A stretch of DNA of 64,000 nucleotides from positions 202,834 to 266,833 of the forward strand of contig NZ_JACSQC010000002.1 of NCBI RefSeq assembly GCF_014836875.1, read 5' to 3'. The notes below the pieces were generated by a model. It searched no databases. It was not told where the DNA came from and saw only the letters and a list, made by a program, of their open reading frames with translations. The DNA is from Arthrobacter pullicola. Its GTDB lineage: Bacteria > Actinomycetota > Actinomycetes > Actinomycetales > Micrococcaceae. Positions 29,358 through 33,051 of the stretch are shown here, one piece after another (position 1 is the first letter of the stretch; each line of letters begins with the position of its first letter). A program made the translations under genes and the position numbers.

Positions 29358-30929
29358 TCAACCCGCTGTGGGGGCCGCGGCAGAGGCCTGCACCAGCGGC
29401 AGCGTGGTACCCGATTCCAGGATCGCGGCTACCTGGCCAGCCTCGAGCGGCCGGCTGAAATAGTAGCCCTGGCCGCTGCGGCAGCCCAGCACCAGTAGGT
29501 CCGCCGCCTGGTCCAGGGTTTCGATTCCTTCGAAAACAGCTTCCATTCCGGCTGCCTGGATGAGCCCGTGGACAGCGTCAACGAACTGCAGCTGACCGGG
29601 ATCGGCGCTGATCTCGCTGATCAGGCTGCGGTCCACCTTCACCGTGTGCACCGGAAGCCGGCGCAGGTAGCTGATGGACGAGTATCCGGTGCCGAAGTCG
29701 TCGATCTCGATGCCGACGCCCAGGGCGTCCAGCGATTTGAGCGAGTACATCTCCACGTCCCCGCCGCTGACGAACGCGCTTTCGGTAATCTCGATGACCA
29801 GGCGGCTGGGAGCTATTCCGGTCTCAGCGAGTGCCCGGCGGACGTGATCCACCAGGTCCAGCCGCTGGAGTTCCATGGCAGAGAGGTTCACGCGCACCTG
29901 GAAGTCGGGTTCGAGGGCCAGCTGCGCTTCCCAGCGTGCCACCTGTTCAAGGGCAGCGCGCAGCACCCACCGCCCGACGTCCAGGATGATCCCGGTCTCC
30001 TCGGCGATCGAAATGAAGTCGTCCGGCATGATGAGTCCGCGCTTCGGATGCCGCCACCGGATGAGGGCTTCCACCCCTGTCATCCGGCCTGTGGCGAGTT
30101 CCACCACCGGCTGGTAGGCCAGGAACAGCTCATTTCTGCCCACACCCTCGCGGAGCTCAGCGGCCATCTCCCGGCGGAACTGGCGCGCATAGAGCATCAC
30201 GGGTTCAAAGGCCTTGCTCTGGCTCCGGCCGGCGTCCTTGGCCGCGTACATGGCGGTATCCGCGCGGACCATGATGTCTTCCGAGGATTCGCCCTGGAGC
30301 GCGGAGTGCACCCCGATGCTTGCGCGCGGCCAGACGTCGATTTCCTCCACGCGGATACACTCAGCCAGTGATTCCTGGACCCGCGCAGCCACCCCCATGG
30401 CAGTCGTCAGGCCCGTCTCCGGGAGCAGGACGGCAAACTCGTCTCCGCCCAGCCGGGCCACCGTGTCACCGCGCCGTACGGCCCAGCGGATCCGCCGGGC
30501 CACTTCCACGAGCACCTGGTCTCCGGTCTGGTGCCCAAAGCTGTCATTGATGTCCTTGAACGCGTCGAGGTCGATCATCAGGATGGCGGGCCGTTTGAGG
30601 CCTTCCTCCGAGGCGACCAGTTCGGCATCAATCTCGTGCATCAGCGCTGTCCGGTTGGCGGTGCCGGTCAGGGCGTCACTCATGGCCATCCGCTGCATCT
30701 GGCGGTGCGCCGCCTGCAGCTCACGCGTCCGTGATTCCACCCTCTCCTCAAACTCCTGGTAGACCGAGTTCAGTTCCTCGGCCAGGAGGTTGATGCCGGT
30801 GATAACGGCGTCCACGGCGTCGCGCCTGGGCGAGGTGCGGATCCGCGTACTCAGGTCACCGGCGGCGATCCGGACAATTCCGTCCACAACCTGCTGGAGA
30901 CGGGTGTCCTCTGTGTCTGGCTCCGTCAT
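29358..30929 (-). CDS. GGDEF-EAL cyclic-di-GMP turnover protein
   Basis: 523 residues from an ATG at 30929 (MTEPDTEDTRLQ) that overlaps the upstream stop (ATGA). A short HAMP-like/coiled-coil N-terminus (RIAAGDLSTRI ... EELNSVYQEFEERVES) replaces any sensor domain, and there is no membrane segment. GGDEF domain: DALTGTANRTAL and RLGGDEF near residue 161, with an inhibitory RxxD site (RRGD) five residues before it. EAL domain: EALIRWRHP near residue 288, NLSAMEL, EITESAF, DDFGTGYSS, VKVDRSL, FEGIET and QGYYFSRP, so catalytic residues for both cyclase and phosphodiesterase are present. It is probably bifunctional, with the upstream STAS-like protein as regulator (inference). Confidence 0.93.
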   Translation of the reverse strand: MTEPDTEDTRLQQVVDGIVRIAAGDLSTRIRTSPRRDAVDAVITGINLLAEELNSVYQEFEERVESRTRELQAAHRQMQRMAMSDALTGTANRTALMHEIDAELVASEEGLKRPAILMIDLDAFKDINDSFGHQTGDQVLVEVARRIRWAVRRGDTVARLGGDEFAVLLPETGLTTAMGVAARVQESLAECIRVEEIDVWPRASIGVHSALQGESSEDIMVRADTAMYAAKDAGRSQSKAFEPVMLYARQFRREMAAELREGVGRNELFLAYQPVVELATGRMTGVEALIRWRHPKRGLIMPDDFISIAEETGIILDVGRWVLRAALEQVARWEAQLALEPDFQVRVNLSAMELQRLDLVDHVRRALAETGIAPSRLVIEITESAFVSGGDVEMYSLKSLDALGVGIEIDDFGTGYSSISYLRRLPVHTVKVDRSLISEISADPGQLQFVDAVHGLIQAAGMEAVFEGIETLDQAADLLVLGCRSGQGYYFSRPLEAGQVAAILESGTTLPLVQASAAAPTAG

Positions 30930-31369
30930 CCCGCCCGGCTTCCAAGCCACGCCAAGGCGTCGTGCCTCGACGAAAAGTACTTTGTGGGACACGGCGGCAG
31001 GTCGCCGCCCAGCAGGAAGTTGGCTATGACGCGATCAACCTGGGTGGAGCCAACGACGGCGACGGCGGACGCGGAGCGTGCGGATCCGAAAACGGTGCGT
31101 GCGCTGCGCGTGATCGACTCGATGCCGGTTAGTTCCAGCAGCAGCGGTTTATCCGCGGTTCCGGCGAGTTCCTGGAACTCCGCAGCAGCGCGGGCGGCAA
31201 TTCCACCGGTAATGACCGCGCCGGGCGGCAGGACCATGCTGATGAACCCGTCATCCTGGCAGACCTCCGCGTAGCCTTCAGCGGCTGCGGGGATTTCTTC
31301 GCCCTGCCTGCCGGATCCCAGAGGGTCCGCTGCACCGGGCGCTGGAGCTGAACCACCCATGACTGTCAT
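30926..31369 (-). CDS. Small STAS-like/hypothetical protein coupled to the GGDEF-EAL gene
   Basis: 147 residues. The first ~35 are low-complexity (Gly/Ala/Pro/Glu). The remainder has alternating strand-helix pattern (ISMVLPPGAVITGGIAARAAAEF, KPLLLELTGIESITRSAR, VAVVGSTQVDRVIANFLLG), like STAS or SpoIIAA-type folds found next to actinobacterial signalling enzymes. No membrane segment. The stop overlaps the GGDEF-EAL start (ATGA), so the two proteins are made together. The ATG at 31360, preceded by GGGGGGAG with about 10-nt spacing, is an alternative start. Fold assignment is by eye and uncertain. Confidence 0.75.
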   Translation of the reverse strand: MTVMGGSAPAPGAADPLGSGRQGEEIPAAAEGYAEVCQDDGFISMVLPPGAVITGGIAARAAAEFQELAGTADKPLLLELTGIESITRSARTVFGSARSASAVAVVGSTQVDRVIANFLLGGDLPPCPTKYFSSRHDALAWLGSRAG

Positions 31370-31558: not shown

Positions 31559-32614
31559 TTATGTCTGACTTTCATCAGTACAACCACCAACGAGACTCTG
31601 TTCCTCGAGGAACTTTCTGGATTGATCCGCCCGCATGACAGCACCTGCTGCGTCGAAAAGTTCGACACTGGCTCTGGCCTGCATTAGTGCCGCGTTCGCG
31701 GCGCCGTCGTCATTGAGTATCCGCGCATACAGCAGGCGCGCATCGCCTTCGCTGAGTGGGGACAATGACCCGGCATCTTCCATAACCTTGGCCATTTGTT
31801 CCCGGGCAGCAGCCACCTCGCCGGTGAGGTAGCGCCAATGGGCGCGGATGATCATGATGTCGAGTTCATCTTGACGGTTTCCACCGCTGATAGAGATGGC
31901 CATCTCTGCACGTTCTATACACTGGAGGGTTTCCGGCTCCATGAGATTAGCGGTCAACCGCATAAACGCGGATGCCTTGTTAAACAACGCCCATAGACTG
32001 ACGTCGTGACTGAGGGAAAGGGAATCCGCCGCCAGCCTGTGGTAGTGCGTAGCTTCATTATTCCTTCCCAGCAGGAAGGCCACGTTGCCTATCGACCAGT
32101 AGGCCCTACCCGCCTTGTCGGGTGCAGTTCCTTGATCGACCATGCCAGCCAGCACAACCGATTCATGCCAAGCATCCTCCAAGTGGCCGCTTTCAGCCAG
32201 AACCGCCATCAGTACTTGCTGCGCTTCGAGTTTGCCTCTACTGCCATACCCGGTTTCAGGAAAATCCAAGGCTGCTTCTCTTGCGATTTCCAGCGCCTCG
32301 GGCAGCTGGCCCAAGCTCCGCAGTCCGGCAGATTTCAGAGCCTTCGCTTTGGCAGCAAGCTCAGGCTCCCGCAGAGCAATCGAATGCCCTTCGAGCATTT
32401 TGGCAGTTTCCACATAATCGTCGATTAGGCCGAGCTCCCGCTGGCATTCGGCGAGCAGATAAGTCATCCGCCACCATCCATCGTCATCACCTCGCGAGGC
32501 CGCAGTGTCCGCAGCTCTCCGCGTGTGTGCCATGGCAGCGTCATACTCCCGCTGCTCCCAGAGCTGCCGGGCTTTGTACTCATTCAAAATGAAGTCATCC
32601 GCACTCAAAGCCAC
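31559..32614 (-). CDS. TPR-repeat cytosolic protein, possible peptide receptor
   Basis: 351 residues from a GTG at 32614, with AGGAAAG upstream. All-helical: about eight TPR-like helix pairs, e.g. residues about 12-37 (ARQLWEQREYDAAMAHTRRAA), 47-75, 87-118 (GLRSLGQLPEALEIAREAALD), 127-157, 168-199 (SIGNVAFLLGRNNEATHYHRL), 249-283 and 295-325. No DNA-binding, enzymatic, signal or membrane segment is recognised. GC content is visibly lower than that of neighbours. It is divergent (239 nt) from a 46-codon gene for a secreted peptide. TPR-only proteins paired with an exported peptide gene recall Rap/Phr-type RRNPP systems of Bacillota; that comparison is an inference from architecture. Confidence 0.8.
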   Translation of the reverse strand: MALSADDFILNEYKARQLWEQREYDAAMAHTRRAADTAASRGDDDGWWRMTYLLAECQRELGLIDDYVETAKMLEGHSIALREPELAAKAKALKSAGLRSLGQLPEALEIAREAALDFPETGYGSRGKLEAQQVLMAVLAESGHLEDAWHESVVLAGMVDQGTAPDKAGRAYWSIGNVAFLLGRNNEATHYHRLAADSLSLSHDVSLWALFNKASAFMRLTANLMEPETLQCIERAEMAISISGGNRQDELDIMIIRAHWRYLTGEVAAAREQMAKVMEDAGSLSPLSEGDARLLYARILNDDGAANAALMQARASVELFDAAGAVMRADQSRKFLEEQSLVGGCTDESQT

Positions 32615-32826
32615 GCCACTTTCCTACTCTCGCCATCCGGCTGCTCTCAACACACACTACGACTATTCTGCTCCGCTTGCGGCAGGCCACCCAAGCATTA
32701 CGTCAGGCAAGTCGTCACTGAAATAAATGAAAGGCATCCTCGATCGAATGACCACACCAAAAAACTGCCGCTTCGTGAACATACTTGGCGATTTCTGGGT
32801 AGGATAAGTCCTGTCAGTAATCTGGG

Positions 32827-32832
32827 TATGAT
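32827..32832 (+). promoter_or_regulatory. -10 element TATGAT before the secreted-peptide gene
   Basis: TATGAT (in GGGTATGATTTAG) lies 21 nt before the ATG at 32854, leaving a short leader that just accommodates the AGGAG ribosome site. No good -35 was found, so an activator may be needed. Confidence 0.4.
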
Positions 32833-32853
32833 TTAGTCACCATAGGAGCACTA

Positions 32854-32994
32854 ATGAAGAAATTTGGCGCATCACTTCTTCTCGCAGCAGCCATCGCCGC
32901 CGTAGGCGTAGCAGCACCGGCAAATGCAGCACCGTCCACCGGCAACGGTGGCGGCAACATTGCCCAGCCGCTGATCGGCAACTGGCCTTACTAA
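32854..32994 (+). CDS. Sec-exported mini-peptide (46 aa), candidate signalling pro-peptide
   Basis: A short gene: ATG at 32854, AGGAG five nt upstream, TAA at 32992. Residues 1-25 are a textbook Sec signal (MKKFGASLLLAAAIAAVGVA, then cleavage after ANA). The predicted mature part is 21 residues: a Gly/Asn-rich stretch APSTGNGGGN followed by IAQPLIGNWPY. There are no cysteines, so it is not a lantibiotic- or defensin-like peptide. A strong intrinsic terminator begins 13 nt after the stop, showing an independent transcription unit. It lies divergent to the TPR gene. A communication peptide cut from the C-terminus (for example PLIGNWPY) is the idea I favour. A small structural or antimicrobial peptide is the alternative. 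Confidence 0.75.
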   Translation: MKKFGASLLLAAAIAAVGVAAPANAAPSTGNGGGNIAQPLIGNWPY

Positions 32995-33006
32995 GATAGC
33001 CGGAAA

Positions 33007-33051
33007 AGTCGGACGGTGTTGCTCGTGGGGCACCGTCCGGCTTTCTTCTTT
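33007..33051 (+). terminator. Intrinsic terminator of the secreted-peptide gene
   Basis: AGTCGGACGGTG pairs with CACCGTCCGGCT (12 bp, one G-T pair), followed by TTTCTTCTTT. Confidence 0.88.

Follow-up and report, generated by a model that had tools for sequence, protein, structure and literature searches.

What would a bacterium do with a tetratricopeptide repeat (TPR) protein whose gene stands back to back with a 46-codon gene for a predicted secreted peptide? The question arises in the window, a 64,000-nucleotide stretch of the Arthrobacter pullicola genome (contig NZ_JACSQC010000002.1, positions 202,834 to 266,833), where the initial annotation had proposed a possible actinobacterial peptide-communication cassette. 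The pairing of the genes and the conservation of peptide core and receptor groove support that proposal, and we consider it probable, at roughly 0.8, that the pair is an RRNPP-like system in which a secreted peptide pheromone would be re-imported and read by the TPR groove. Beyond the annotation, we found, outside the window, a paralogue that bears a helix-turn-helix (HTH) and is paired with a peptide of its own, as well as precursors with tandem copies of the peptide core, a link to GGDEF-EAL genes and a wide taxonomic spread. TPR-receptor peptide quorum sensing has so far been described for Bacillota and their mobile elements, mainly Bacillus and relatives; a conserved soil-actinobacterial family with predictable short ligands would be directly testable with synthetic peptides. 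Below, L denotes a locus, G a genome, g a genus and f a family, f1 being the family of the source genome.

A divergent pair of putative receptor and propeptide genes

Both annotated open reading frames (ORFs), the 351-residue TPR gene and the divergent 46-codon ORF, are present, with 239 bp between their starts. The features of the pair are:

31559–32614, minus strand: putative TPR-only receptor gene, 351 aa, GTG start at 32614, eight TPR pairs and a cap helix, without HTH
32827–32832, plus strand: TATGAT, possible −10 element, seen by eye
32844–32848, plus strand: AGGAG, ribosome-binding site for the peptide gene; relatives in the genus have an identical or similar one
32854–32994, plus strand: propeptide gene, 46 aa, ATG start at 32854; MKKFGASLLLAAAIAAVGVAAPANA / APSTGNGGGNIAQPLIGNWPY
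32854–32928, plus strand: predicted Sec signal, residues 1–25, ending in A-x-A, judged by eye rather than with SignalP
32968–32991, plus strand: C-terminal PLIGNWPY with a conserved G-x-W-P core, proposed mature pheromone, from comparison with relatives
33005–33044, plus strand: terminator-like hairpin 3' of the peptide gene, from a hairpin scan

The TPR protein has, by eye, no signal or membrane segment. Its AlphaFold model is all helical (mean predicted local distance difference test score, pLDDT, 93.2), and the annotated count of about eight TPR pairs was accepted because the helix list gives eight A/B pairs plus a capping helix; the pairs start at residue 3 and the list shows no extra N-terminal bundle. 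No Pfam family scored above cut-off for either window protein, and neither passed in searches of NCBIfam and PHROGs.

The peptide gene also proved to be as annotated, a micro-ORF with a Sec-like N-terminus (judged by composition) that closes in ANA and is followed by the tail APSTGNGGGNIAQPLIGNWPY, ending in PLIGNWPY. Of the expression signals claimed for it, the AGGAG site stood, with a five-base spacer before the start codon. The TATGAT element was seen by eye and missed by a sigma-70 consensus scan, which found no promoter-like site there, and the supposedly strong terminator is a single hairpin, a number no higher than in shuffled sequence (shuffle mean 1.2). Against the close relatives L003–L005 the proportion of synonymous differences (pS) was 0.41–0.53 and that of nonsynonymous differences (pN) 0.06–0.08; judged by its codons, the window peptide is under purifying selection. 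A chance ORF was rejected on this codon evidence, and we take the ORF to be more than chance because of the pS/pN pattern and because a divergent, signal-peptide-like ORF is found at this position in all 29 genomes of the genus.

Conservation of the pair and its Trp-Pro core

The TPR gene occurred in 31 of 59 genomes searched, comprising all 29 of the genus (the source genome included), two of eight others of the family and none of 22 from the rest of the order. In each of the 29, the divergent Sec-type ORF lay at the TPR-only locus, with an ATG start in 28 and GTG in one (G019). The peptide tails of the genus carry Trp-Pro (W-P) in 26 of 29 cases (PLIGNWPY, SPLVGWWPN, KPYGMWPNA, SVFGIWPKSD and others) and F-P in the other three (L018, L021, L022). 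With the pair in every same-genus genome and the receptor family present across f1, a single-genome curiosity was rejected.

An HTH-TPR profile search found the receptor family in 144 of 295 sampled f1 genomes and 17 of 32 genera; loci were fetched for part of the 144. A tree of 114 receptors, rooted at the midpoint, divides along one branch (SH-like approximate likelihood-ratio test, SH-aLRT, 97) into a TPR-only side of 47 rows and an HTH side of 67 rows, the HTH state being assigned by length (≥372 aa). On this tree the TPR-only and HTH-TPR receptors are two sister clades. The near-copy L015, the truncated L020, L025, the partial L142_1 and L144_0 at a contig edge were left out; likewise not entered were the receptor of G011, the split L172 and, from the HTH-TPR loci of the genus, L101–L104. 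An adjacent small ORF, which the annotation had expected beside homologues, was present as a divergent peptide at 47/47 TPR-only and 42/67 HTH-TPR rows, in 15 of the 16 genera of the tree. This census was curated: twenty peptides were set by hand where the automatic rule missed them or chose the wrong start or ORF, two of them being given M for a GTG or TTG start.

The expected conservation of the peptide tail held for the core, roughly G/N-x-W-P; the linker that precedes it is variable. A detector for divergent W-P ORFs scored at 24/28, 12/20 and 47/71 loci, against 14/560, 27/400 and 59/1420 shuffles. Run on 167 control genes, the receptor genes of those loci included, it scored 24, namely 18 receptor genes and six others, none of the six having a Sec-like start by eye. 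Many precursors hold two to eight tandem cores, such as AIGNWPDPM (2–6 copies), FVGNWPDAVAP (five) and VGNWPDA (six), with eight copies in L249, L250 and L278. Between copies within precursors, matched core codons differ by 174 synonymous and 0 nonsynonymous pairwise changes, a count that is biased because copies were picked by pattern: it covers pattern-matching copies only, in which G, W and P were fixed by the pattern, and excludes degenerate ones, of which there are at least three (L106, L111, L117). As a separate observation, L145 and L206 (g53) each have two TPR-only genes in a row; a separate divergent peptide accompanies each gene, and the cores differ (IDDWPH/VGNWPG; IDNWPN/VGNWPD).

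An HTH-bearing paralogue with its own peptide

A second TPR relative occurs in 29/29 same-genus genomes at ~31–36% identity (in G005, where it is in two pieces, 29% for one of them). In 20 of 20 same-genus loci fetched, an HTH precedes the TPR domain in the same protein; its AlphaFold model, like that of the window protein, is all helical with TPR pairs (pLDDT 92.7). Pfam HTH_3 scored above cut-off in the relative L028 but fell short of it or gave no hit in L066 and L062, and the source genome's own copy was not recognized.

Divergent to the HTH-TPR gene, 12 of these 20 loci have a 19–23-aa ORF without a signal sequence, ending in VG(D/N)WPD; the source genome's version is MKMLQTPNSVSSRTLVGDWPD. 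No such leaderless peptide was found at the remaining eight, where the place looks decayed by eye. Six further same-genus HTH-TPR loci added one peptide (L172) and five loci with none (L171, L101–L104), giving 13/26. Within the source genome, the pattern G[ND]WP[DY]-stop occurs exactly twice, once by each receptor, and a reversed control gave 0.

Across genera, the HTH-TPR rows lacking a detected peptide include eight g7 paralogues and six of eight g46 rows. By locus, no divergent W-P peptide was detected beside the HTH-TPR paralogues L153–L160 (g7), L132, L163 and L165–L168 (g46), and most of L247–L264. These may be orphan receptors reading a peptide made elsewhere, an idea raised because most of them keep W173 and N177, two residues of the groove described below; passages of PMC9765709 discuss ‘eavesdropper’ orphan receptors for Bacillota.

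Three minor observations concern individual HTH-TPR loci. In L172 (G005, 1121–2328) the receptor gene is split in two, possibly by a frameshift or assembly error, and the leaderless VGDWPD peptide ORF is intact. The source genome's copy (L221, C8:297500-309000) has ksgA on one side and, on the other, an rpfB-like gene (Transglycosylase, DUF348 and G5 domains). A perfect 8-bp inverted repeat, GCGGCAGA-7-TCTGCCGC, stands ~25–47 bp upstream of the HTH-TPR start in L062–L064, between peptide and receptor genes, and could be an operator; among 18 same-genus HTH-TPR genes searched upstream, the other 15 had no perfect 8-bp repeat, and we set it aside as evidence because it is confined to L062–L064.

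A conserved groove in repeats 5 and 6

If the peptide is a ligand of the TPR protein, the concave surface might show a conserved pocket, which the annotation had named as a check. The groove of TPR repeats 5 and 6 is the most conserved (entropy 1.05 and 0.55, TPR numbering), with W173, N177, F180, W208 and N212 as its residues, and W173 is present in 113 of 114 tree rows; the groove as a whole is barely more conserved than other A-helix positions (entropy 1.67 versus 1.71). Two of these residues bound the following feature:

32084–32098, minus strand: codons Trp173 to Asn177, at groove positions 5 and 9 of TPR repeat 5, from conservation across the tree rows

Asn occupies position 177 in 86/86 tree rows with a W-P peptide and in 17/28 without, the 11 exceptions being nine rows with no peptide and two with F-P. 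In a validation set of 60 further loci, for which the rule for peptide calls was fixed before N177 was read, the residue was present in 42/42 loci with a W-P peptide and 17/18 without; these 18 include at least one miss (L259, whose peptide is visible in L287). Over both sets the counts are 128/128 versus 34/46 (Fisher p 3.6e-8, with related rows).

Relation to known peptide pheromone systems

Both receptor models fall within the cytosolic TPR proteins of ~250–500 aa that characterize RRNPP(A) systems. Receptors of those systems other than Rap carry an N-terminal HTH, as does the HTH-TPR sister clade; the window protein, as Rap, has none. An exported propeptide is predicted at the TPR-only loci, and the own-genus HTH-TPR peptides have no Sec signal.

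Rap proteins have an N-terminal three-helix bundle that acts on a response regulator. The window pair resembles Rap-Phr in combining an HTH-less TPR receptor with an adjacent, apparently Sec-exported propeptide whose short C-terminus would be the pheromone, but differs in its divergent orientation, GGDEF-EAL neighbour and W-P core, and no N-terminal three-helix bundle is apparent in its helix list. PlcR-PapR and NprR-NprX, in which an HTH-TPR receptor has a short neighbouring propeptide, are likened to the HTH-TPR side; unlike them, the present family is actinobacterial, divergently oriented, with multi-copy W-P precursors and a TPR-only sister clade. Rgg-SHP and RopB-LCP are systems with leaderless peptides, and the own-genus HTH-TPR peptides, likewise short and without a signal sequence, differ from those in their C-terminal VGDWPD core (a likeness by description, not by sequence comparison). 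The AimR-AimP arbitrium system also consists of an HTH-TPR receptor and a secreted peptide, but one actinobacterial HTH-TPR protein had no relative in phage records and the receptor profile none in viral contigs.

The HTH-TPR profile matched PlcR over the HTH and first TPRs (E 3.3e-5), behind designed TPRs, and also matched the ComR HTH; the match to RapF was weak (E 0.35 with the TPR profile, 0.0034 with a sub-profile). Tandem pheromone copies, up to eight, are known in RRNPP propeptides according to passages of PMC11343458, and parts of PMC9765709 describe multi-copy propeptides as common with AimR, NprR, Rap and PlcR. According to a section of PMC3601965, every Rap protein of B. subtilis keeps an Asn in the groove, Asn225 in RapJ, which binds the backbone of the peptide; N177 and N212 are at most possible counterparts of RapJ Asn225, and the aligned ranges suggest a shift of ~three residues.

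In the sections available, an RRNPPA profile search of 13,513 genomes gave matches in Firmicutes genera (PMC9765709), RRNPP_detector was applied to Firmicutes and viruses in a paper whose introduction describes Actinomycetota signals as typically small molecules (PMC10075063), and the available text of a 2026 review names RRNPP only for Firmicutes or Gram-positives (PMC13220807). Among the matches listed, titles and abstract openings contained no description of an actinobacterial W-P peptide/TPR system and no case joining a peptide pheromone to cyclic di-GMP (c-di-GMP), which leaves absence unproven.

Proposed mechanism and candidate output

We propose that the 46-aa propeptide would be exported by Sec and cut after A-N-A, and that trimming outside the cell would leave a short C-terminal peptide containing IGNWPY as its core. 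An oligopeptide permease would return this peptide to the cell, where the TPR groove would bind it near repeats 5–6 (W173, N177, F180, W208, N212). Seven SBP_bac_5 (oligopeptide-binding type) proteins encoded in the source genome would make peptide import possible. HTH-TPR receptors would act on DNA. TPR-only receptors have no HTH and would be expected to target a protein, for which the adjacent GGDEF-EAL enzyme, with a STAS-like protein where present, is the leading candidate; the peptide signal would thereby shift the c-di-GMP level. The two neighbours in the window are:

30926–31369, minus strand: DUF7793/SpoIIAA-like (STAS) protein, downstream neighbour of the TPR gene, kept in the genus and part of other genera
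29358–30992, minus strand: GGDEF-EAL protein, GGDEF and EAL motifs intact, conserved neighbour and proposed output enzyme

Both genes follow the TPR-only gene in 28/28 same-genus loci examined (G011 not among them), and EAL genes number only two in the whole source genome. In other genera, 19/19 TPR-only loci examined have a GGDEF-EAL relative in their flank (L025, L202–L211, L292–L299; g8, g31, g47, g50, g53), which in L202 stands beyond the peptide gene; several of these loci (L205, L207, L292–L295) have no STAS-like protein near it. No GGDEF-EAL gene was found in 20 HTH-TPR flanks, covering ~5 kb each way at L212–L221 and ~4 kb each way at L282–L291. This gene context suggests, tentatively and at a little under even odds, that the TPR-only arm controls c-di-GMP via its GGDEF-EAL neighbour, which if true would join peptide pheromones to c-di-GMP. 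We hold just as tentatively the broadest form of the proposal, a class-wide actinobacterial Trp-Pro pheromone language in which HTH-TPR receptors would be transcriptional and the HTH-less arm would directly gate GGDEF-EAL enzymes and set c-di-GMP.

A different output would also fit the pheromone reading: TPR-only receptors might act on a DNA-binding partner, for example the HTH-TPR paralogue, with GGDEF-EAL incidental. We regard this as somewhat doubtful. It draws on the second relative in 29/29 same-genus genomes, with an HTH in 20/20 fetched, and on the perfect inverted repeat upstream of the HTH-TPR paralogue in three close species, but leaves aside that GGDEF-EAL genes lie near TPR-only genes in six genera and in varied orders.

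Several results weigh against the pheromone reading or its c-di-GMP output. For each of the two models the top Foldseek matches are eukaryotic LGN and designed TPRs; RappLS20 and RapF follow for the window protein, with template-modelling (TM) scores to Rap of only 0.49–0.58, and PlcR (3u3w/2qfc) and Rap stand behind other TPR proteins for the HTH-TPR paralogue. The best PDB sequence matches are likewise designed or eukaryotic TPRs. No peptide was detected at 25/67 HTH-TPR rows. The N177–peptide association has p 0.3 in the 60-locus validation set alone, and a tree-aware test of it was not significant (1–4 independent pairs in the same direction, 0 opposite). Co-variation of peptide tail and groove, a further check named in the annotation, did not emerge: a partial-Mantel test was negative in both sets, N177 being the top single column for the TPR-only set and ranking second for the larger one. 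As to output, the GGDEF-EAL gene lies ~4.5 kb off in four of the 19 non-genus TPR-only loci (L204, L206, L208, L209); ten of the HTH-TPR flanks reach ~4 kb, and a gene 4.5 kb off would therefore be missed there. Inherited gene order may also explain part of the GGDEF-EAL linkage.

Other readings of the peptide

The peptide might instead stay inside the producing cell and, with neither export nor import, serve as a timer or dose sensor by binding the TPR protein in cis. No clear signal is seen in the HTH-TPR peptides of the own genus (19–23 aa), of g32 and of two f17 species (L303, L304), as this would predict; the window peptide and other TPR-only peptides, however, have Sec-type N-termini by eye, and tandem precursors require processing, making action in cis improbable.

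Less probable again is a small secreted antimicrobial or toxin, with the TPR protein as its regulator or immunity factor. A small secreted peptide does adjoin a regulator, repeats and variable linkers are compatible with this, and ABC-exporter-sized genes lie near the HTH-TPR genes of L212 and L220. Yet the core is 4–6 residues long and not cationic, core and receptor groove are retained in the same rows, and the gene after the peptide in the own genus is deoC rather than a modification or immunity gene, the flanks being annotated in part. The exporter-sized genes, observed in L212 (g31) and L220 (g40), are two in each locus, a few hundred bases past the peptide gene, one of each pair being confirmed by Pfam.

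The least likely reading is that the two genes have no relation and have stayed side by side only through slow change of gene order. The own-genus order GGDEF-EAL, STAS, TPR, peptide, deoC is indeed also kept, but the divergent peptide recurs in 15/16 tree genera and in other families, and in differing neighbourhoods (deoC, ksgA, purC).

Spread beyond the family

Similar gene pairs occur beyond f1. Viral contigs searched with the receptor profile gave no match and phage records searched with one HTH-TPR protein (L107) no relative, on which grounds a phage arbitrium system was rejected; plasmids gave 32 records, the best 20 of 32 being distant Streptomyces-type HTH-TPR proteins at 27–29% identity. 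In an order sample, 32/297 genomes scored, 15 of them f1. Family f17 has the receptor in 9/119 genomes, with a divergent W-P peptide by a receptor in six of the nine, and no such peptide at the f17 receptors L185, L186, L306–L309 and L312. Its Sec precursors hold three (L311, L313) or two (L305) GGSWPT units, L187 ends in SDTWPA, and L303 and L304 have 51-aa ORFs without a clear signal, ending in LARGDWP. Under a strict rule, ten f17 loci (leaving out L185, L305, L310 and L312) gave six Sec-like ORFs and three with W-P, against 55/200 and 10/200 shuffles, which is weak by itself.

A class sample yielded 36/345 genomes at E 1e-25 or better, six of them f1 or f17. Among 24 loci of other families (L320–L343), a divergent Sec-like ORF lies within 380 bp at 15, and nine have W-P, compared with 71/480 and 5/480 in a shuffle control and with 7/24 and 0/24 in the region after the receptor gene. 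Some Sec-like divergent peptides of these families have Cys-Cys as their last two residues, preceded by W-P in some and not in others (NWPKCC, PDWPGMCC, SSDCC, PVDMCC; L323, L329, L330, L333, L334, L336, L339).
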